This document shows positions 1 through 47,281 of a stretch of DNA of 47,433 nt, in pieces. The notes beneath the pieces were generated by a model, which had not been told where the DNA came from, ran no database searches, and saw only the letters and a list, made by a program, of their open reading frames with translations. A program made the translations under genes and the position numbers. Numbering within the stretch: position 1 is the stretch's first letter; every line of letters begins with the position of its first letter. The stretch comes from a virus: positions 1 to 47,433 of the IMG/VR virus record IMGVR_UViG_3300025383_000039, one strand, 5' to 3'.

Positions 1-501
1 GATAGCATTTATAATATTTTAAAGAACATGCCTGATAAAGAGTGGCATACAAGAAAAGATTATCCAATTCCCGCATTTAGTAAAAATCTAGATGAAACTA
101 AAATTATTTTTAATAAATTAAAAGATGTTATTTTAGGATATGATGTTTTTTTAACAGAATCTTTTGTTAAATTAAACAAAGGTGATTTTTGGGGAGAACA
201 TTCAGATAATGCTGATTTTGAAGAAACGAGAAAAAAGTCTTTAACATTAAAAGATAACGAACCATTTGAGATTGTTGATAATACAGCTTATGGAATTGTA
301 GTTTATATTAACGATAATTACCAAGGTGGGGAAATATATTATCCTACGCAAAATATAGTCTATAAACCAAAGGCTGGGGATTTAGTAGTACACAGTGCTG
401 AAGACTTAGCAGTTCATGGCGTTCAAACAGTTATAGATGGAACTAGGTTTTCATATTCAAGTCACTTATCTACAGAATTAAAGGTACCATTAAATGGATG
501 A
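1..501 (+). CDS. 2OG-Fe(II) oxygenase, prolyl-4-hydroxylase type (5' end outside window)
   Basis: The frame is open from base 1, so the N-terminus probably lies outside the window; the first ATG is at 28. Counting from that ATG, an H58-x-D60 pair, an NYQGGE strand, H130 in VHGV and R140 form the jelly-roll iron and 2-oxoglutarate site of P4H-type dioxygenases. Such enzymes hydroxylate proline or other side chains using Fe(II), O2 and 2OG. The stop overlaps the next gene, also oxygenase-like, by 8 nt. The family is secure; the substrate is unknown, perhaps a fibre or a host protein. Confidence 0.85.
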   Translation, partial: DSIYNILKNMPDKEWHTRKDYPIPAFSKNLDETKIIFNKLKDVILGYDVFLTESFVKLNKGDFWGEHSDNADFEETRKKSLTLKDNEPFEIVDNTAYGIVVYINDNYQGGEIYYPTQNIVYKPKAGDLVVHSAEDLAVHGVQTVIDGTRFSYSSHLSTELKVPLNG

Positions 502-33703: not shown

Positions 33704-35638
33704 ATGTCTAATTCAATTGAAAACCCATATGAAAACTTTATTGCGTTGTCTCGTTATGCAAGATGGCTAGAAGATGAGAATCGCAGAGAGACATGGGGTG
33801 AAACTGTAGACCGTTACTTTAACTTTATGGTTGAGCATCTTGAAAAGAATAACAATTATAAGCCAGATGCAAAGCTTGTTGCAGAATTGCGTGATGCTGT
33901 ATTTAACCGTAACGTTATGCCATCAATGCGTTCTGTTATGACTGCAGGACCAGCATTGGAAAGAGAAAATGTTGCAGGCTACAACTGTTCATTTATTCCA
34001 GTAGATAATGCTCGTTCATTTGATGAAGCAATGTATATTCTTATGTGTGGTACAGGTGTTGGATTTTCTGTTGAGTATAAGTACATCAATAAACTTCCCG
34101 CCCTTCCAGAAACTCTTGAGAAGTCAAACACAGTAGTTATTGTTGGAGACTCTAAAGAAGGTTGGGCAAAAGCATATCGTGAACTCCTAGGTCTTTTGTG
34201 GGCAGGACAGATCCCACAGATTGATGTTAGCAAAGTTCGTCCTTCAGGTGCACGTCTTAAGACAATGGGTGGAAGATCATCAGGTCCTCAACCATTAGTT
34301 AATCTTTTTGATTTTACAATTCAAGTATTTAAAGGAGCACTTGGCCGTCAACTTAAGCCAATTGAATGTCACGACATTATGTGTAAGATCGGAGAAGTTG
34401 TAGTTGTTGGCGGAGTACGTCGTTCAGCACTTATCTCTCTTTCAAATATTAATGATATTGAAATGGCAGCAGCTAAAGCTGGTAATTGGTGGGAATCAAA
34501 TGCTCAACGTGCACTAGCAAATAACTCTGTTGCATATTCACGTAAGCCAGAGATGGCACAGTTTATTTCAGAATGGAAATCTCTATATGATTCGAAGTCG
34601 GGCGAAAGAGGTATCTACAATGTGGCAGCAGCCCAAGCCCAAGCAGCAAAGTACGGAAGACGTAGTGCAGATATTCACTATGGAACTAACCCTTGCTCAG
34701 AAATTATCCTACGTCCTTATCAGTTTTGTAACCTTTCAGAAGTCGTACTTCGTGAAAAAGATACAGTTGAGGATGTTGCCAATAAAGTTCGTCTTGCAAC
34801 AATTCTTGGAACATGGCAATCAACACTTACAGACTTTAAGTACATCCGTAAGATTTGGAAAGACAACACAGAAGAAGAGCGTCTACTAGGAGTTTCACTT
34901 ACTGGACAATTTGGACATAAGTTCTTTTCTGGACAGGAAGGTTTGCCAAAACTTGGAGATGTTCTAGATAGACTTCGTGAGTATGCTCTTGCAACAAATA
35001 TTGAAGAGGCAGAGAAAATTGGGATTCCCGCCTCAGCAGCAATCACTTGCGTAAAGCCTTCGGGCACAGTGTCCCAATTGGTCGGGGTGTCTTCAGGAAT
35101 GCATGCATGGCATTCAGATTATTATATTCGTACAGTTCGTGGGGATAAGAAAGATCCTATTACCCAGTTCCTAAAGGATTCAGGTATTCCTGCAGAAGAT
35201 GATGTGATGAAGCCAAATGATACAACCGTATTCTCGTTTCCAGTAAAAGCACCAAAGCATGCAATTACTAGAGACAAGTTAACCGCTATTCAGCAGCTTG
35301 AGGTATGGCTAACATATCAACGTCATTGGTGTGAGCATAAGCCATCTATTACTGTTTCTGTGAAAGAAGATGAGTGGATGGAAGTTGGAGCATGGGTATA
35401 CAAGCACTTTGATGAGTGCTCAGGAATTTCATTCTTGCCATACTCAGAGCATACATATGTTCAGGCTCCATATCAAGAGGTTGACAAGGATGCATATGAA
35501 GATATGGTTGCAAAGATGCCAAAATCAATTAACTGGGCTGCTTTGTCAATGTATGAACTTGAAGATAGCACTACAGGAACTCAAGCACTTGCTTGCGTAT
35601 CTGGTGAGTGTGAGATTGTAGATATCGGTCAAAACTGA
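33704..35638 (+). CDS. nrdJ: B12-dependent class II ribonucleoside-triphosphate reductase
   Basis: 644 residues, slightly shorter than the 739-residue L. leichmannii enzyme. C95 (YNCSF) and C331 (NPCSEI) form the active-site disulfide/thiyl pair, with the radical fold motifs ECHDIMCKIGEVVVVGGVRR and SGTVSQLVGVSSG; the C-terminal CVSGEC (C631, C636) matches the redox pair that thioredoxin reduces. It converts NTPs to dNTPs without oxygen demand. AAGGAG lies before the ATG; a terminator follows. Requires host cobalamin. Confidence 0.95.
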   Translation: MSNSIENPYENFIALSRYARWLEDENRRETWGETVDRYFNFMVEHLEKNNNYKPDAKLVAELRDAVFNRNVMPSMRSVMTAGPALERENVAGYNCSFIPVDNARSFDEAMYILMCGTGVGFSVEYKYINKLPALPETLEKSNTVVIVGDSKEGWAKAYRELLGLLWAGQIPQIDVSKVRPSGARLKTMGGRSSGPQPLVNLFDFTIQVFKGALGRQLKPIECHDIMCKIGEVVVVGGVRRSALISLSNINDIEMAAAKAGNWWESNAQRALANNSVAYSRKPEMAQFISEWKSLYDSKSGERGIYNVAAAQAQAAKYGRRSADIHYGTNPCSEIILRPYQFCNLSEVVLREKDTVEDVANKVRLATILGTWQSTLTDFKYIRKIWKDNTEEERLLGVSLTGQFGHKFFSGQEGLPKLGDVLDRLREYALATNIEEAEKIGIPASAAITCVKPSGTVSQLVGVSSGMHAWHSDYYIRTVRGDKKDPITQFLKDSGIPAEDDVMKPNDTTVFSFPVKAPKHAITRDKLTAIQQLEVWLTYQRHWCEHKPSITVSVKEDEWMEVGAWVYKHFDECSGISFLPYSEHTYVQAPYQEVDKDAYEDMVAKMPKSINWAALSMYELEDSTTGTQALACVSGECEIVDIGQN

Positions 35639-38795: not shown

Positions 38796-41700
38796 ATGGC
38801 AACTAGAATTCAATTAAGAAGAGACACCGATGCAAATTGGTCATCAAATAATCCAGTAATGCTTTTGGGCGAAGTTGGATATAACGATGATAATGGAAAA
38901 ATTAAGATTGGTGATGGTTCTTCTGCTTGGTTAGACCTTAATTATGCCACAACACTTCCCTCCGAACTATCAGATGCAATTGCTAGTGCTATTTCAACCT
39001 CCGAATCATACACAGACTCAGCAATCAGCACAGAAGTAACAAATAGAAATTCAGCTATTGCTACCGCTAAATCACAAGCAATCAGTACGTCAGAATCTTA
39101 TGCTGATGTAAAAAAGTCTGAGGCAATTACAGCTGCAGAGTCATACGCAGATACAAAGAAATCAGAAGCTATTACTGCTTCAGAATCATATACAGACTCA
39201 AAAGTTTCTACTGAAGCTTCAGCTAGAACTTCCGCAATTAATGCAGCGGTTAACACCACAGAAGCTTATACAGACTCATCTATTTCAACTTTAAGAAGCT
39301 ACACTGATGGGCAGGTTACATCAGCAAGAACAGCAGCAGAAACATATACAGACGAAGCAATATCAAAAGAAGTAAATGATAGAAACGATGCTATTGCATC
39401 TTCTTTGTCAACATCTAAATCTTATACTGATACAGCAGTTGCGGGACTTGTTGATAGTGCCCCATCAGTACTAAACACTCTTAAGAAAATTGATGAAGCA
39501 ATTAATAACGATGCTAATTTTTCAACAACTTTGCTTGGAGACATTGCTACTGCCCAAGCAACATCTGAATCTTACACCGATAGCAAGATATCAACAGAGG
39601 TTTCTAACAGAAATGCAGCAATTGCATCAGCTAAAACTGAATCTGAAACATATACCGATATTCAAGTTGGTAACGAAAGAGATGCTAGAATTTCTTATGT
39701 TAATCAAGCAAAAGCAGATGCAATTTCAATTTCAGAAACATATGCTGATGGACATATTGCCACAGCAGTTTCAAATGGGGTAGCAGCTGCTGAAACATTT
39801 GCTACTAATGCAGCTAATTCAGCTCAAATAGCAGCTGAGGGGTATACAGATGCTGCTATATCAACAGAAGTAACAGATAGAAATGATGCAATATCTAATG
39901 CTAAATCAGAAGCAATTTCATCTGCAAATTCATATACAGATTCATCAGTTCAGACAGCTAAAACAGATCTTCATTCTGCAATAGAGACAGAAGCATCAAA
40001 TAGAGATACAGCAATTAACAATGCTTTGGCAAATGCAGAATCTTATACAGATACTCATATATCAACAGAAGTTTCAAATAGAAACAATGCTATATCAAAT
40101 GCAAAAGCTGAAGCAATTGCAACCTCAGAGTCATATACTGACTCTAAGATAGCAACGGAAGTTGCAAATAGAGATGGTGCTATACTTACAGCATCTTCAA
40201 GCACACTATCTTCTGCAGAATCTTATGCAGCAACAGCTGCTACTGATGCTTTAAATACATCTAAATCTTATACAGACTCAACAATATCTACAACAATTAC
40301 AGATTTACAAGGTTATACCGATAGTGCAGTAGCAACAGAAAGAAGCAATAGACTTTCTGGCGATACAACAAATCTTAATAATGCTAAGTCTTATGCAGAT
40401 GGCGTTGCAAATACAGCTCAAGCCAATGCTGAATCTTATACAGATTCTAAAATTTCACAAGAAGTAACAAATAGAAACTCAGAAATTGCGACTGCAAAGT
40501 CTCAAGCTGAAACATATGCGGATGGAGTTTCTGCTAGTGCTCTTACAGCAGCAGAAACATATTCTGATGAAAATACAGCACTAGCTATAGCAGCAGCAGA
40601 GGCGTATACAAATCAAAATACCCCAGTTGCTGGAACAGATTATATTGCTTTTTCTGAAAAGGGTGTAGCGGGGGGTGTAGCAGAACTTGATTCTACTGGT
40701 AAAGTTCCAGACTCTCAAATTAATTCAGATATTGCTCGTGTAGCAGATGTTAATTCAGAAATTTCTTCATCTGCCTCATCTACTCTTTCATCTGCTGAAA
40801 CATATACAGACAATCAAATTGCATCTCTTGTTAATTCAGCACCATCTACCCTCAATAAGCTTAATGAACTTGCAGCAGCTATTGGTAACGATGTAAACTT
40901 TTCAACAACAATTTTAAATGATATTTCTACTGCTAGATCAGATGCAGAGTCTTATACAGATTCAGCAATTGCTACAGAAGTTACAAATCGCAACTCAGCT
41001 ATAAATACGGCTAAATCTCAAGCAATAACAACATCAGAGTCCTATACAGATAGTGCTATATCTAGTGAAGTTTCTAATAGAAATTCAGCAATTGCAACTT
41101 CTCTTTCTACCGCCGAGTCTTATGCTGATACAAAGAAATCAGAAGCAATTTCAACTTCTGAGACGTATACAGATTCTGCAATTTCAACAGAAGTTGCTAA
41201 CCGTAATTCAGCTATAAATACAGCTAAGTCTCAAGCTATTACAACAGCAGAAGGATACACGGACACTGCTATTTCAACAGAAGTTTCAAACCGCAACGCA
41301 GCAATTGCAACTTCTTTGACAACTGCAGAAACTTATGCTGATAATGCTAAAAATTCTGCTATATCAACTGCAGAAGCATTTGCTACTGCTGCAGACTCAA
41401 CTCTTCATACAACAATTACAGGGGAAATTGCTACCGCTAAATCACAAGCAATTACAACTGCAGAAGCTTATACAGATTCAGCAATTAGCTCTGAAGTTAC
41501 AAATCGAAATAATGCAATAGCAGCCTCATTAACAACTGCTGAAAACTATGCAGATGCAGCAAAATTAACAGCTGAGGGGTATACAGATACTGCTATATCA
41601 ACAGAAGTTACTAATCGCAACTCAGCTATAACATCAGCAGTTTCTACTGAAGTTACAAATCGCAACAACGCTATATCTTCAGCTATATCTACAGAAGTAG

Positions 41701-44700
41701 CAAATCGCAACACTGCAATTTCAAATGCTACTGCTAATATGGTTCAAACAACAGATACTGGCTCTGTTACTTCCGCCATGATTTTAGATGGAACTATTGT
41801 TAATTCTGACATTTCAACTTCCGCAGCAATCCTTGCAACAAAGATTGCGGGAACTGCAGTAACACAAGCAGATACAGCAACAGTTACAAATACAATGCTT
41901 GCAGGATCTATTGCAGATACCAAGCTTAATACAATTTCAACATCTGGCAAGGTTGCAAATTCTGCAACAACTGCAACAGATGCAAATACAGCATCAACAA
42001 TAGTTGCTCGTGATGCATCTGGTAACTTTAGTGCAAACTTAATTACAATTAACCAAACACCTACATCAGCTGGACATGCTGCTTCTAAAGCATATGTTGA
42101 TAACTTAGCTGCAGGTATGAACTGGCATGGAGCTGTGCAAGCAGCAACAACAGGCGTACTCCCTGCATCAACATATACAGATGGAACAACAGACGCTAAT
42201 GGAGGTAAAGGAATTGGAGCAACTCTTGTTGCTACAGCCAATGGGGCACTTTCCATAGATGGAGTAAACGTCTCAAATGGAAACCGTGTTCTTGTTAAAA
42301 ATCAAGCAACATCTTCTCAAAATGGTATTTATACTGTTACATCAAATGGTGGAGCATCTTCAAAGTGGACATTAACACGTGCTACAGATTCTGATGATCA
42401 TATTTTAAATCAAGTTCAAGCGGGAGATGCCGTATATGTACTTTATGGTGGTACAAATGGAAACCAATCATTTGTAGAAACAACAACTGGAACAGGAACA
42501 AATGGAGTACTACTTATAGGTACAGATGCTATTACATTTACACAGTTCTCAGGAGCAGCAACATTCGTAGCAGGAAATGGTCTTACACGCACGGGTAACC
42601 AGGTAGATGTTGTTTCTTCAACACTTAATGTTACAGCAGATGCAATAGATCTACCTACAGTTTCACAGACAAACACTACAGGCGGAAACCTTGCAAATGG
42701 TATTGTCTCTGCAATTACGGTAGATTCTTATGGTCGTGTTACTGGCTATCAAACAGGTGCTCAAAACGTTGCAAGCACATCAAATAAAGGAATTGCATCA
42801 TTTGACTCAGCATCATTCACAGTAACATCTGGCAACGTAGTAATTAAAAATGCTGGTGTCTCAAATGCACAGCTTGCAAACAACTCAGTCACAATTGGTT
42901 CAACTTCAGTAGCACTTGGTTCAACTGCAGCAACTGTGGCGGGATTGACATTGACTTCTCCAGTAATTGCTCAAATCAGCAATACAGGAACACTTACATT
43001 GCCAACATCTACAGATACTCTTGTAGGACGTGCAACTAGTGATACGCTTACAAATAAGACAATTTCTGGTTCATCAAACACTATTTCTAATATTGCTAAT
43101 TCAAGTCTTACTAATTCTTCAATTAATATAAATGGTTCAGCAATTCCGCTCGGAGGATCTGTATCAGGACTTGCTACAAATGCTTCTCCTACATTTACAG
43201 GAACTGTTACGCTTCCCCTTGGAACTGCAGGATATGTAACAACAACTTCCGCTGGTGTAATTTCAAGTGTAGCAACAATTCCAAACTCAGGACTTACAAA
43301 CTCAACAATTTCAGGTGTATCACTTGGGTCTAACTTAAATGCACTTACAATTGGAACTGGTCTTTCAGGAACCTCATACAATGGCTCGGGAGCAGTAACA
43401 ATTGCTAACACTGGTGTACTTAGCGTAAATGGTTCAACAGGTGCAGTAATAGGAATTGCAACAACAGCATCACCAACATTTACAGGTACAGTCACACTTC
43501 CACTCACAACATCTGGATATGTAACAACCTCTTCATCTGGTGTAATTAGCTCAGTTGCAACAATTCCAAATGCTGGATTGACTAATTCAAGCGTAACTGT
43601 TGGTACAACAGCAATTGCTCTTGGAGCTTCATCAACTACACTTGCTGGTCTTACATCTGTAACATCAACAGGATTTACTGGTGCACTTACAGGTAACGTT
43701 ACTGGTAATGCTTCTACAGCTACCACCCTTGCAACACCTCGTGCAATTAATGGTGTAAACTTTGATGGCTCTGCAGCAATTACAATCAAGGCTGTTAATC
43801 CAAATGCTCTTACAATTGGAACGGGACTTTCAGGATCATCATTTGATGGTTCAGGTGCAGTTACAATTGCTATAGATTCAACAGTAGCTACATTAACTGG
43901 AGCACAGACTCTTACAAATAAGACTCTTACATCTCCAGTAATTGGAACTATCTCAAATACAGGTACATTAACACTTCCAACTTCAACAGACACATTGGTT
44001 GGTCGTGCAACTACCGATACTTTGACAAACAAGACATTAGATACTGCAGGTGCTGGTAACGTACTTAAGATTAACGGTACTCAGGTTTCAGCAGTAACAG
44101 GTACGGGAGCAGTAGTTCTTGCTACCAGTCCATCTGTAACTGGTCTTTCAACAGACACACTTTCAACAACTGGTAACGTAACAGTTGGCGGTAACTTGAC
44201 AGTTAACGGTACAACAACCACAATTAACTCAACAACTCTTAATACAACAGAGCAAGTTCTTGTTATCTCTAATACTGCTACACCAACAGATGTGACTGCA
44301 AACGGTGCGGGAATTACTATTAAGGGTGCTACAGATAAGACATTTAAGTGGTACTCATCAACAGGAGCACTTACATCATCTGAAAATATTGATCTCGCAT
44401 CAGGTAAGGCCTATGATATTGCAGGAACCAACGTACTAACATCTACTAAGGTACTTGGGCGTACACCAGGTGGAACAACATCTGGCGATATTGTAACAAT
44501 TGATGGTTCACAGACACTTACAAATAAAGTTATCTCTGGGTCGCAACTTACATCAGGTTCTGTTGCAAATGCAGCACTTGTCAACTCATCAGTAACGATA
44601 GGTTCAACTTCGGTAGCACTCGGTGCGACTGCCACAACAGTAACAGGACTTACCCTTACATCTCCAGTGCTTAATAGCCCTACAGTTGGAACGGGAATAA

Positions 44701-45077
44701 CTTTAAACTCAGGTGCTACAGTAACATTTGCAGATGGAACAGTTCAGTCTAGTGCTGGTGTTCCTTCTATAACAACAATTGCTGCACAAACAGCATCATA
44801 CACACTTTCTTCTCTTGCAGAAAGAGATAGAACTATAACAATGTCATCTGCTTCGCCTATGACATTTACAGTTCCAAATGACTCTACGCTGAATTTCCCA
44901 GTAGGAACATCTATTGATATAATTCAAATTGGAGCAGGTCAAGTCACATTTGCAGGCGCATCTGGTGTAACAATCAATACCTCAACTGGACTAAAGCTTA
45001 GAACCACATGGGCAGCAGCAACACTATTCAAAATTGCTGCAAATACATGGGTTGTTTATGGAGATCTATCATCTTAA
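38796..45077 (+). CDS. Giant tail fibre, 2093 residues
   Basis: Residues 1-48 (ATRIQLRRDTDANWSSNNPV, GEVGYNDDNGKIKIGDGS) match the receptor-attachment N-terminus of phage fibres such as the Mtd/hyaluronidase-1 type. A long region to about residue 985 is a heptad-like coiled coil of SESYTDSAIST/EVTNRNSAI units. The remaining half is repetitive beta-structure (TLTNKTISG, GSTSVALGS, SGYVTT-SSGVISS) ending in a compact tip domain. The protein should form a very long trimeric fibre. It is the largest gene in the window. Confidence 0.93.
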   Translation: MATRIQLRRDTDANWSSNNPVMLLGEVGYNDDNGKIKIGDGSSAWLDLNYATTLPSELSDAIASAISTSESYTDSAISTEVTNRNSAIATAKSQAISTSESYADVKKSEAITAAESYADTKKSEAITASESYTDSKVSTEASARTSAINAAVNTTEAYTDSSISTLRSYTDGQVTSARTAAETYTDEAISKEVNDRNDAIASSLSTSKSYTDTAVAGLVDSAPSVLNTLKKIDEAINNDANFSTTLLGDIATAQATSESYTDSKISTEVSNRNAAIASAKTESETYTDIQVGNERDARISYVNQAKADAISISETYADGHIATAVSNGVAAAETFATNAANSAQIAAEGYTDAAISTEVTDRNDAISNAKSEAISSANSYTDSSVQTAKTDLHSAIETEASNRDTAINNALANAESYTDTHISTEVSNRNNAISNAKAEAIATSESYTDSKIATEVANRDGAILTASSSTLSSAESYAATAATDALNTSKSYTDSTISTTITDLQGYTDSAVATERSNRLSGDTTNLNNAKSYADGVANTAQANAESYTDSKISQEVTNRNSEIATAKSQAETYADGVSASALTAAETYSDENTALAIAAAEAYTNQNTPVAGTDYIAFSEKGVAGGVAELDSTGKVPDSQINSDIARVADVNSEISSSASSTLSSAETYTDNQIASLVNSAPSTLNKLNELAAAIGNDVNFSTTILNDISTARSDAESYTDSAIATEVTNRNSAINTAKSQAITTSESYTDSAISSEVSNRNSAIATSLSTAESYADTKKSEAISTSETYTDSAISTEVANRNSAINTAKSQAITTAEGYTDTAISTEVSNRNAAIATSLTTAETYADNAKNSAISTAEAFATAADSTLHTTITGEIATAKSQAITTAEAYTDSAISSEVTNRNNAIAASLTTAENYADAAKLTAEGYTDTAISTEVTNRNSAITSAVSTEVTNRNNAISSAISTEVANRNTAISNATANMVQTTDTGSVTSAMILDGTIVNSDISTSAAILATKIAGTAVTQADTATVTNTMLAGSIADTKLNTISTSGKVANSATTATDANTASTIVARDASGNFSANLITINQTPTSAGHAASKAYVDNLAAGMNWHGAVQAATTGVLPASTYTDGTTDANGGKGIGATLVATANGALSIDGVNVSNGNRVLVKNQATSSQNGIYTVTSNGGASSKWTLTRATDSDDHILNQVQAGDAVYVLYGGTNGNQSFVETTTGTGTNGVLLIGTDAITFTQFSGAATFVAGNGLTRTGNQVDVVSSTLNVTADAIDLPTVSQTNTTGGNLANGIVSAITVDSYGRVTGYQTGAQNVASTSNKGIASFDSASFTVTSGNVVIKNAGVSNAQLANNSVTIGSTSVALGSTAATVAGLTLTSPVIAQISNTGTLTLPTSTDTLVGRATSDTLTNKTISGSSNTISNIANSSLTNSSININGSAIPLGGSVSGLATNASPTFTGTVTLPLGTAGYVTTTSAGVISSVATIPNSGLTNSTISGVSLGSNLNALTIGTGLSGTSYNGSGAVTIANTGVLSVNGSTGAVIGIATTASPTFTGTVTLPLTTSGYVTTSSSGVISSVATIPNAGLTNSSVTVGTTAIALGASSTTLAGLTSVTSTGFTGALTGNVTGNASTATTLATPRAINGVNFDGSAAITIKAVNPNALTIGTGLSGSSFDGSGAVTIAIDSTVATLTGAQTLTNKTLTSPVIGTISNTGTLTLPTSTDTLVGRATTDTLTNKTLDTAGAGNVLKINGTQVSAVTGTGAVVLATSPSVTGLSTDTLSTTGNVTVGGNLTVNGTTTTINSTTLNTTEQVLVISNTATPTDVTANGAGITIKGATDKTFKWYSSTGALTSSENIDLASGKAYDIAGTNVLTSTKVLGRTPGGTTSGDIVTIDGSQTLTNKVISGSQLTSGSVANAALVNSSVTIGSTSVALGATATTVTGLTLTSPVLNSPTVGTGITLNSGATVTFADGTVQSSAGVPSITTIAAQTASYTLSSLAERDRTITMSSASPMTFTVPNDSTLNFPVGTSIDIIQIGAGQVTFAGASGVTINTSTGLKLRTTWAAATLFKIAANTWVVYGDLSS
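38990..41740 (+). repeat. Coiled-coil coding repeats of the giant fibre
   Basis: Imperfect repeats of about 75-90 bp encoding SESYTDSAIS-TEVTNRNSAIATAK-type units; copies around 40975-41320 are the most similar. Slipped-strand changes could alter fibre length. Confidence 0.8.
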
Positions 45078-45086
45078 GGATAAAAA

Positions 45087-46541
45087 ATGGTTAAACATAT
45101 CGGAAGACACGCAGGTGAAGTTGAGGGTGAATACATCATCCCAAATACTCCAACAATTGGTACTGCTACCGATGTTGGCTTAAATAGACCATTTAATAAT
45201 GGTGCTGCAACTGTAACATTTACACCAGCAGCAACTGGAACTTCAGCTACCTATTATACTGTTACAGCATATTCAGTGGGAACTAAGACGGCAATCACGG
45301 CGACTGGTTCATCTTCTCCAATTACAATTACAGGCCTTACATCAACAGGATCTTACACATTTACTGTTTATGCATCTAATTCGTTGGGTAGCTCAAAAGA
45401 ATCTTCTCAAAGTAACTCAGTAACAATTACAACTGTCCCAGATGTCGCCTATAATCTCTCTCTTGTAAATAATGGTCAAAACTATGACTATGGAACTTGG
45501 ACAGCTCCCGCTAATAATGGTGGTAAAGCAATTAGCAATTATCACATTACTGATAACCAAGGGCATTCTTATGACACTGGAGTTACAACCGCATACAATT
45601 GGAATGAGTCGGATAACTCTGTAGTTTCATTCTCGGTATATGTTGATAATGCAAATGGAAGATCAGCAGTAAGTAACTCGTCTAATCAGGTTACCACAAC
45701 CCCATTTAGCTTTGCACCATTTGGTTTTACCCCATTCAGCTTTACACCTTTTGCCTTTACTCCATTTTCATTTACACCATTTGCGTTCACTCCGTTCTCA
45801 TTTACTCCATTCGCATTTACTCCGTTCTCTTTTACCCCATTTTCTTTTACCCCGTTCTCATTCACTCCATTCGGCTTTACCCCATTTGGCTTTACACCAT
45901 TCGGCTTTACACCATTCGGCTTTACCCCGTTTGGCTTCACCCCATTTGGTTTTACACCATTTGCATTTACGCCATTTGGCTTTACACCATTTGGATTTAC
46001 TCCGCACTTTGGATTTACGCCATTTGGATTTACTCCACATTTCAGCTTTACTCCATTTGCGTTCGGCTATGGAAATAGCTTGAGTTTGGTTTCAACGGTA
46101 AGAACTCCAGATGGTGTTGTACCAGCAATATCATTATCAGAAGAATCAGCACTACTTACTTCAAACATTGAAACTAATGCTGATATATTTGATTTGACAT
46201 CTTGGTCTGATAATAAGGCTACTGTATATGGAAATGAATTAACATATATTAAAGAAATATCTACAAGAACTTCAGATACAATTGTTATTGTAAACGGCGA
46301 GTACTTTACAAAAGAACATTTTATCTTGGTTAATAGAAGTGGTTTTGTAATGTTTGTTAACCCACAAGATCTTAATCCAGATACTGATCAAGTATGGTCA
46401 TACTCAATGCAAAATTACAAGCCTTTATCTCAACTACAAGTAATTAATGATACTTCTTATGAAGTTGTTACGGTTAAAACATTGCCAAATACCTGGTTTT
46501 ACACAGAAGATATTTTGTGCTATGATTCATATACTGCATAA
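45087..46541 (+). CDS. Tail protein: two FN3-like domains, PFxFT repeats and a Hint-like C-terminus
   Basis: 484 residues. Two FN3-type domains (about 20-113 and 117-204) lead into about 24 pentapeptide repeats PF[GSA]FT (206-327), an extreme Phe/Pro/Gly-rich array. The last 155 residues (SLVSTVRTPDGVVPA, then F-T408-K-E-H411-F, later NTWFYTEDILCYDSYTA) have the spacing of a Hint/intein-type domain with a TxxH block B, but lack the N-terminal Cys/Ser and terminal HN, so self-processing is doubtful. AAGGAT lies upstream of the ATG. Confidence 0.8.
   Translation: MVKHIGRHAGEVEGEYIIPNTPTIGTATDVGLNRPFNNGAATVTFTPAATGTSATYYTVTAYSVGTKTAITATGSSSPITITGLTSTGSYTFTVYASNSLGSSKESSQSNSVTITTVPDVAYNLSLVNNGQNYDYGTWTAPANNGGKAISNYHITDNQGHSYDTGVTTAYNWNESDNSVVSFSVYVDNANGRSAVSNSSNQVTTTPFSFAPFGFTPFSFTPFAFTPFSFTPFAFTPFSFTPFAFTPFSFTPFSFTPFSFTPFGFTPFGFTPFGFTPFGFTPFGFTPFGFTPFAFTPFGFTPFGFTPHFGFTPFGFTPHFSFTPFAFGYGNSLSLVSTVRTPDGVVPAISLSEESALLTSNIETNADIFDLTSWSDNKATVYGNELTYIKEISTRTSDTIVIVNGEYFTKEHFILVNRSGFVMFVNPQDLNPDTDQVWSYSMQNYKPLSQLQVINDTSYEVVTVKTLPNTWFYTEDILCYDSYTA
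45702..46067 (+). repeat. About 24 tandem 15-bp repeats encoding PFxFT
   Basis: Units differ mainly at the third residue codon (Gly, Ser or Ala), with two units expanded by His (PHF). The minus strand is also open here, a by-product of the repeat. Confidence 0.85.
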
Positions 46542-46567: not shown

Positions 46568-47281
46568 ATGGCTAAAATAGAGTTTATTCCAAAGTTTCGC
46601 CATTTGGCGGAAGCATTCCCACATCCCGTTCCAGTTACATCAATGTTGCCTGATTGGTGGAAGAAGCAAACAACTTTTTTTAATAATGATCAAAAACCAC
46701 ACAATGGTTTGATAAATGTAACAGTAAAAAAGTGTCAAGCCATTTTTGACAGTATGACGGCGGGGTATTATTTATTGTGCCCAATGGATATTTATGTAGA
46801 TGCAACAAAATCAAAGCTTGATATTCAGCTACCAAAAGAATACATGAGTAGATATCATCAAATTATATCTACTCACTCTAAAGAGCAACTTCAAGAGTAC
46901 CCTGCACCAGATGGATACCATGCAGATTTATTTAGAATACACCCACATTGGCTAGTAAAAACTGATAAGGGGTATAGCTCTTTGTTTATGCAACCAATGC
47001 ACCTTAAAACAGACATTACAGCCGTACCTGGATTCATTGATACGGATCAATATATTTCAGATGGATATCTTTCATTTTTTGTACCAAAAGGTTTTGTGGG
47101 AACAATAAAACAGGGAACTCCAATTGTTCAAGTAATACCTATGCGTAGAGATGAGTGGACAAGTTCTATTAATGAAGATCCACATTCTGATAGATTGCTT
47201 GAAAAACAAAGCAGTGTTGTTAGATCTACATTTCAAAATGGCTATCGAATGAAGTTTTGGTCTAAAAAAAGCTACAAATAA
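46568..47281 (+). CDS. DUF6065-like phage protein
   Basis: 237 residues. PVTSMLPDWWKKQT, VKKCQAIFDSMTAGYYLLC, FRIHPHWLVKTDKGYSSLFMQP, GFIDTDQY and GTPIVQVIPMRRDEW follow a small phage family, recalled as DUF6065, seen near tail and oxygenase genes. A cupin-like fold is suspected; function unknown. Its stop shares a base with the next ATG. Confidence 0.72.
   Translation: MAKIEFIPKFRHLAEAFPHPVPVTSMLPDWWKKQTTFFNNDQKPHNGLINVTVKKCQAIFDSMTAGYYLLCPMDIYVDATKSKLDIQLPKEYMSRYHQIISTHSKEQLQEYPAPDGYHADLFRIHPHWLVKTDKGYSSLFMQPMHLKTDITAVPGFIDTDQYISDGYLSFFVPKGFVGTIKQGTPIVQVIPMRRDEWTSSINEDPHSDRLLEKQSSVVRSTFQNGYRMKFWSKKSYK

Follow-up and report, generated by a model that had tools for sequence, protein, structure and literature searches.

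An aromatic pentapeptide array between FN3 domains and a C-terminal Hint domain in a protein of a viral tail-fibre locus

Introduction

Near the end of a 47.4 kb virus record, analysed over its whole length and called the window here, one open reading frame contains a run of near-identical, phenylalanine-rich pentapeptides. A preliminary description of the sequence assigned this run to a tail protein and compared it to FG-repeat or amyloid-like assembly domains. What kind of protein carries such an array, and what could the array do there? We found that the array is one part of the protein, and that a C-terminal Hint (hedgehog/intein) domain, missed in the preliminary description, is the more informative part. 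The reading that we moderately favour is that of an adhesin precursor from a tail-fibre locus, in which the Hint domain would cut at the end of the array and leave a disordered aromatic C-terminus.

Results

The array gene lies in a tail-fibre locus

The open reading frame and its two neighbours are:

45087 to 46541, + strand: 484-residue open reading frame, FN3-FN3-array-Hint precursor (sequence, domain and structure matches)
38796 to 45077, + strand: upstream fibre gene of 2093 residues with Mtd_N domain (Pfam Mtd_N, E 2.3e-11; phrog_1125, tail fiber protein)
46568 to 47281, + strand: downstream gene, phrog_7084, function not known (weak DUF6065 match within its cluster)

The array frame starts 9 nt past the stop of the fibre gene, and an AAGGA ribosome-binding-like site overlaps that stop. 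Among the loci of the family, a gene of the tail-fibre cluster, which includes Mtd_N-type members, was located directly upstream of the array gene in 80 of 81 cases, and in L040 a T4 gp10-like connector (phrog_967) was present further upstream. We are highly confident that the array-Hint protein is a tail-fibre-locus protein. The earlier attribution to a tail protein had been an assumption; it is supported by synteny, from which we consider a location in the virion probable.

The ribonucleotide reductase encoded at 33704-35638 of the window is closest to those of Streptomyces phages (67% identity), a hint at an actinobacterial host.

The array peptide is under selection

45702 to 46064, + strand: PFxFT array, 24 units, residues 206-326 (sequence reading, TRF, unit counts)

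The unit count agreed with the earlier figure of about 24 units varying chiefly at one G/S/A position: ten PFGFT, six PFSFT, four PFAFT, one PFSFA, PHFGFT, PHFSFT and a final PFAF, with His inserted in two units and Thr replaced by Ala in one (PFSFA). The start assigned earlier (45702) was correct, but the end (46067) was three bases too long. The array consists of 48 Phe, 24 Pro, 22 Thr, 11 Gly, 8 Ser, 6 Ala and 2 His (40% Phe, 20% Pro, 18% Thr); it contains no charged residue, has a Phe every two to three residues (F-F spacing 2-4), and is the longest among the complete family members (23 units were scored, against 2-20 in the others). TRF reported periods of 15, 30 and 45 with scores of 150, 262 and 243, respectively, and DNA matches of 73-79%. 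The 21 full 15-nt units comprise 18 distinct DNA sequences encoding four distinct peptides, ruling out a low-complexity DNA accident, and within the F, F, P and T codons all differences are at the third base except for one Thr to Ala change. This near-exclusively synonymous variation outside position x indicates that the array peptide is under selection and, moreover, that the frame 45087-46541 (+) is the coding one, rather than the overlapping program-made open reading frames.

Structure prediction, as suggested in the preliminary description, was run with AlphaFold2 and gave a pLDDT of about 40 for the array in the window protein, which is compatible with disorder, though the low pLDDT of a repeat is no proof. 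FG-repeat nucleoporins are likewise Phe-rich, uncharged and predicted to be disordered. They have polar spacers, however, whereas the window array is viral, lacks such spacers and keeps a strict five-residue period with Pro and Thr; given its F-F spacing, absence of charge and absence of spacers, membership in this class was rejected. Pentapeptide-repeat proteins (PF00805; A(D/N)LxX-type period) were dismissed as well, as no Pfam match was obtained; the pentapeptide-repeat fold requires a small residue where the window array has Phe. The earlier proposal of an FG-nucleoporin-like or amyloid-forming self-assembly domain, to which the Hint domain would be incidental, accords with the Phe content, the lack of charge and the low pLDDT. 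We nevertheless give it little credence: polar spacers are missing, Pro at every fifth residue disfavours cross-beta stacking, and relatives carry NPPVY, VGSP or PFFPPYFPP in place of FxFTP (see below).

Two FN3 domains precede the array

45135 to 45425, + strand: FN3 domain 1, residues about 17-113 (Pfam fn3, AF2, Foldseek, VIA)
45429 to 45701, + strand: FN3-like domain 2, residues about 115-205 (AF2 model, VIA)

For the N-terminal part of the protein, Foldseek and VIA matched FN3 tandems (VIA Z about 15). FN3 domain 1 was modelled with pLDDT mostly above 90 and matched Pfam fn3 at E 2.1e-5 (score 25 at a cut-off of 25). FN3-like domain 2 had no Pfam match of its own; VIA aligned its residues 115-207 with single titin FN3 domains (Z about 14). 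Among relatives, the N-terminal part is FN3 in most, PASTA in others, or belongs to longer proteins. In most array proteins (e.g. L040, L064 and L074) a motif of approximately G-R-K-S-Q-x-S-N-D-F-L-E-P is conserved before the first FN3 domain, and possibly acts as a virion-anchoring peptide; the window version, GRHAGEVEGEYIIP, has diverged.

The C-terminal part is a divergent Hint domain

46077 to 46526, + strand: Hint domain, residues 331-480 (VIA; profile of relatives against PDB)
46077 to 46079, + strand: Ser331, intein residue 1; the Asn330-Ser331 bond is the predicted cut site (Ser in all 34 members of the Ser clade; structural alignment)
46317 to 46319, + strand: His411, the His of block B, in T408-K-E-H411 (TxxH; no variation within the Ser clade)
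46524 to 46526, + strand: Asp480, replacing the intein C-terminal Asn, preceded by Tyr479 where inteins have their penultimate His (residue comparison)
46527 to 46541, + strand: four-residue tail SYTA and stop (sequence)

Residues 331-480 were predicted at high confidence in the AF2 model. Using VIA, they were matched to Tetrahymena BIL2 (6y75; Z 18.3, 138 residues, rmsd 2.2) and to about 13 further intein/BIL entries (Z 15.9-18.1), among them the Ssp DnaB intein (Z 17.8), a C. thermocellum BIL (Z 17.6) and gp41-1 (Z 16.4-16.7). A profile of 51 relatives searched against the PDB retrieved BIL 2lwy (E 4.5e-8) and gp41-1 (E 1.6e-7), and Pfam Intein_splicing matched 16 of the 51 at E ≤ 0.1 (best 3.9e-8). 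We regard the Hint fold of residues 331-480 as practically certain. The window Hint sequence alone gave no Pfam match and retrieved no viral relatives, indicating that this copy is divergent. Ser331 was placed from the range ends of the 6y75 alignment (-4..147 to 326..484), read as gap-free at the ends; so read, BIL residue 1 falls on Ser331 and BIL Asn143 on Asp480.

The combination of Cys or Ser at residue 1 with a block-B His that characterises the Hint superfamily is present (Ser331; T408xxH411). Class 1 inteins have His-Asn followed by Cys, Ser or Thr and a C-extein, whereas the window protein has Tyr479-Asp480-Ser481 and only four residues after Asp480; type A BILs have His-Asn without a +1 nucleophile, as opposed to Tyr-Asp and +1 Ser in the window. 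Type B BILs, marked by a decayed block G, cleave without splicing (PMC4031507). Block G of the window copy is partly decayed, and the copy may or may not belong to this type. The window copy belongs to the Hint superfamily and is BIL-like, being neither a type A BIL nor a class 1 intein. It lacks the conserved GD turn (Glu353 and Ser354 are found there instead) and the penultimate His, and Glu466 is also among its deviations; given these losses, the window Hint may be weak or dead.

Catalytic positions are conserved among relatives

About 88 distinct array proteins, a few of them partial, were collected from viral contigs and one MAG contig. Scanning 84,980 species genomes for FxFTPFxFTP yielded 53 stretches, of which the 3.2 kb MAG contig L102 (FN3-array-Hint, with a tail-fibre-cluster neighbour) was the sole family member and is probably viral; the other 52 appear to be chance matches or short unrelated open reading frames, such as PFPFTP runs in Nostoc. 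In tblastn searches of 50,697 phage records, three array proteins found no match and L005 only weak matches of its Hint part in Erwinia phages, so that no full-length relative was found in these isolate phages. The remark that tail proteins offer no close precedent is in line with this lack of array matches in annotated isolate phages. Two array-Hint genes in one locus, with different N-terminal parts and with fibre genes between them, were noted for L005, L007, L008, L010, L022, L023 and L035.

Hint-length C-termini were present in 68 relatives, with residue 1 being Cys in 17, Ser in 51 and nothing else. Cys1 is paired with terminal Asn (16/17) and Ser1 with terminal Asp (50/51). On the tree, however, Cys/Asn and Ser/Asp are separated by one double switch (support 98/93), and since this is a single event, the covariation was ruled out as replicated evidence. 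More telling is the Ser clade, in which mean identity is 40% and minimum identity 15%: only four of 153 alignment columns are invariant, Ser1 and the block-B His among them, and the terminal Asp is retained in 97%. Such retention at such divergence is difficult to account for if the acyl shift has fallen out of use.

These data bear on the reading that the Hint domain is dead in the window lineage and works only as a cap at the C-terminus or as a binding domain, with the precursor staying uncut and the array being a long flexible FN3-Hint linker. Decay of block G (Tyr479-Asp480), loss of the GD turn and the failure to find a close viral relative of the window Hint all speak for it; we hold it to be unlikely given the clade-wide retention of Ser1, block-B His and terminal Asp, and because Hint-less relatives keep the array at the C-terminus (see below), so that the array must be more than a linker to Hint.

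The +1 position differs between subgroups. In 16 Cys-clade relatives, His-Asn is followed by Lys, Ile, Gly or Tyr, i.e. by no nucleophile. In a Ser-clade subgroup ending in His-Asp-Ser, the +1 Ser is present in 35/35 unique members, and the C-terminal tails comprise 35-98 residues (13 in L004) of related sequence. Together with the description of C-terminal-Asp inteins as class 1 in mechanism, with Asp cyclisation (PMC4031507), these features would suit splicing in this subgroup, by which Hint would be excised and the array ligated to the conserved tail, giving FN3-array-tail. We rate splicing as rather improbable, as cleavage without splicing would fit too, and as the window protein and the FD/YD members have tails of 3-8 residues, vary at +1 and lack the penultimate His. 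Inteins mutated at the terminal Asn or at +1 carry out N-terminal cleavage (PMC11842431).

Hint-less relatives end at the array

The main argument that the array would be the lasting part of the protein comes from 17 relatives without Hint. They end just past the array, with FGFSPPFR, FGFSPPNFR, FNFTPR, FVPR or GRGARIY before the stop, or with a short Cys-rich tail; Hint-bearing relatives have junctions such as FGFSPPR/CIEENT, FTFSPPK/CIDENT and FGFSPGGRA/CIEADT, the slash preceding Hint. Gene order is identical between L064 (without Hint) and L038/L040 (with Hint). Since the Hint-less relatives stop where Hint would begin, some viruses appear to encode directly what cleavage would yield elsewhere, i.e. 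a mature protein that ends with the array. The junctions differ among Hint-less relatives, and three carry Cys-rich tails instead. From sequence comparison, self-cleavage at the array end appears likely for the family, and for the window copy we give it a slightly better than even chance.

In L161 (6366-7028), L166 (686-1636) and L211 (1255-2238), a short Cys-rich tail whose last residue is Cys takes the place of Hint; L176 likewise ends in a short Cys-rich tail.

Arrays are exchangeable in front of Hint

Searching with Hint domains alone revealed relatives at this position of the locus. Wherever the contig extends far enough, a tail-fibre-cluster gene precedes them, but their arrays differ: FGA repeated about 18 times (L246), PFFPPYFPP (L234), VGSP (L251), VNP (L250), NPPVY(S/D) (L255, L256), YYNPYSNPPPYDNT (L257-259) or TTTPAPT (L243). 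As FxFTP is replaced by NPPVY, VGSP or PFFPPYFPP, the locus does not depend on the Phe pattern as such. By comparison of these sequences, the conserved feature is a segment right before Hint that has a short period, is mostly uncharged and is rich in Pro or Gly; FxFTP as such is not conserved.

This recurrence of Hint behind many different arrays, and not in a conserved enzyme site, makes it very improbable that a parasitic mini-intein has landed in a fibre gene by chance. True inteins (gp41-1, Ssp DnaB) are among the nearest folds, as a mini-intein would have it, but the domain is C-terminal, many members having hardly any C-extein or none, and a homing endonuclease would not fit into the 161-residue C-terminal segment.

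Genes for 2OG-Fe(II) oxygenases (PF13640, prolyl-hydroxylase-like superfamily) were observed directly downstream of Hint proteins with Pro-rich arrays (L255:4489-5671, L234:4584-5264, L251:2613-3221; also L243, L257 and L259), which suggests a possible prolyl hydroxylation of the array. At FxFTP-array loci an oxygenase cluster is found within eight genes in only 17/72. A GlcNAc-type glycosyltransferase match lies near array genes (L024:6639-7556; cluster c9 in 29 loci), making Thr modification of the array possible.

Array length changes by whole units

The comparison of repeat number proposed earlier revealed variation among viral-contig relatives. L005 and L007 have 10 and 9 units, respectively, at 99.3% identity outside the array and without other gaps. 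Corresponding differences were obtained for L025 and L031 (6 vs 5; 97.1%), L179 and L157 (8 vs 7; 93.2%), L054 and L055 (6 vs 5; 90.2%), and L144 and L201 (6 vs 5; 89.3%). In all five pairs the difference is of whole units and the flanks are gap-free. The copy-number change envisaged before is borne out between near-identical relatives. The units of the window array are too diverged (mean DNA identity 0.75) to be a recent slippage product; the window phage itself had no close relative for comparison of array length.

Discussion

In the precursor model that we favour, two FN3 domains would carry a disordered, uncharged, aromatic-rich array, and the C-terminal Hint would act as a single-use self-processing domain. 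Ser331, aided by the block-B His411, would attack the Asn330-Ser331 peptide bond (N-O acyl shift), and the resulting ester would be hydrolysed or taken by another nucleophile. Hint would thereby be shed, and the mature protein would end with the PFxFT array. Once exposed, the array could make contacts as a sticky or extended segment, its length drifting in whole-unit steps; we put this role forward tentatively, with somewhat less than even confidence.

The array-Hint proteins point to a widespread, apparently undescribed viral class in tail-fibre loci, combining adhesion domains, an exchangeable short-period aromatic, Pro- or Gly-rich array and a C-terminal Hint. With a natural series that runs from Cys/Asn through Ser/Asp and decayed to absent, the fate of Hint domains can be tested directly. 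The window array, for its part, is an unusually Phe-dense uncharged sequence of a kind whose length changes in whole units, at what is probably a site of host contact. If Hint works, phages would have a second route to mature fibre-type proteins by C-terminal self-removal, besides the S74 intramolecular-chaperone autopeptidase (PMC7824862). The latter resembles the array-Hint proteins in way of working only, as a self-removing C-terminal tail-fibre domain with low-complexity content, and differs from Hint in having an unrelated fold and chemistry.

Hedgehog proteins offer another comparison, in that their C-terminal Hog/Hint frees what lies N-terminal to it and is able to hand this over to a nucleophile; they differ in their sterol-recognition region, which was not identified in the array-Hint family. 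By analogy with hedgehog and cholesterol, Hint might transfer the array C-terminus as an ester to an acceptor, either a virion protein or a host-envelope molecule. We consider this quite doubtful; if true, the swappable aromatic/proline arrays would serve phage tails as sticky or linker segments put in place by a covalent bond.

BIL domains have in common with the family the Hint fold, the N-terminal nucleophile, a cleavage-type active site and a setting in surface-type proteins, and type A BILs, similarly to the Cys/His-Asn relatives, are without +1 Cys, Ser or Thr. In contrast to the Cys1/Asn of BILs, the window clade has Ser1/Asp, as well as an aromatic short-period array and a place in viral tail-fibre loci.

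In the open-licence literature, nothing was found on the FGFTPFGFTP motif or on phenylalanine-rich repeats in phages, and for Hint in connection with phage tails or fibres the only finds were inteins in genes such as those for terminase and RNR. Nor did this literature provide a paper describing the Hint-terminated structural proteins of the cultured phages Alexandravirus and NCTB (phrog_38766). These proteins similarly join a repetitive shaft-like segment and an Ig-like part to a C-terminal Hint within tail-fibre clusters; they differ in having collagen Gly-X-Y instead of FxFTP and a canonical Cys...His-Asn-Thr, and their similarity to the array-Hint family is confined to the Hint part. Alexandravirus gp111, for instance, is collagen-like, then Ig-like, followed by Cys ... 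THEH ... HN-TDIVAKAEKK, and the PHROG label of the Alexandravirus protein is "virion structural protein". Hint-terminated structural proteins in cultured jumbo phages are encoded at NC_061448.1, 74985-76427 (L224), and LT598654.1, 96419-100333 (L225), their annotations being "virion structural" or "intein domain protein".
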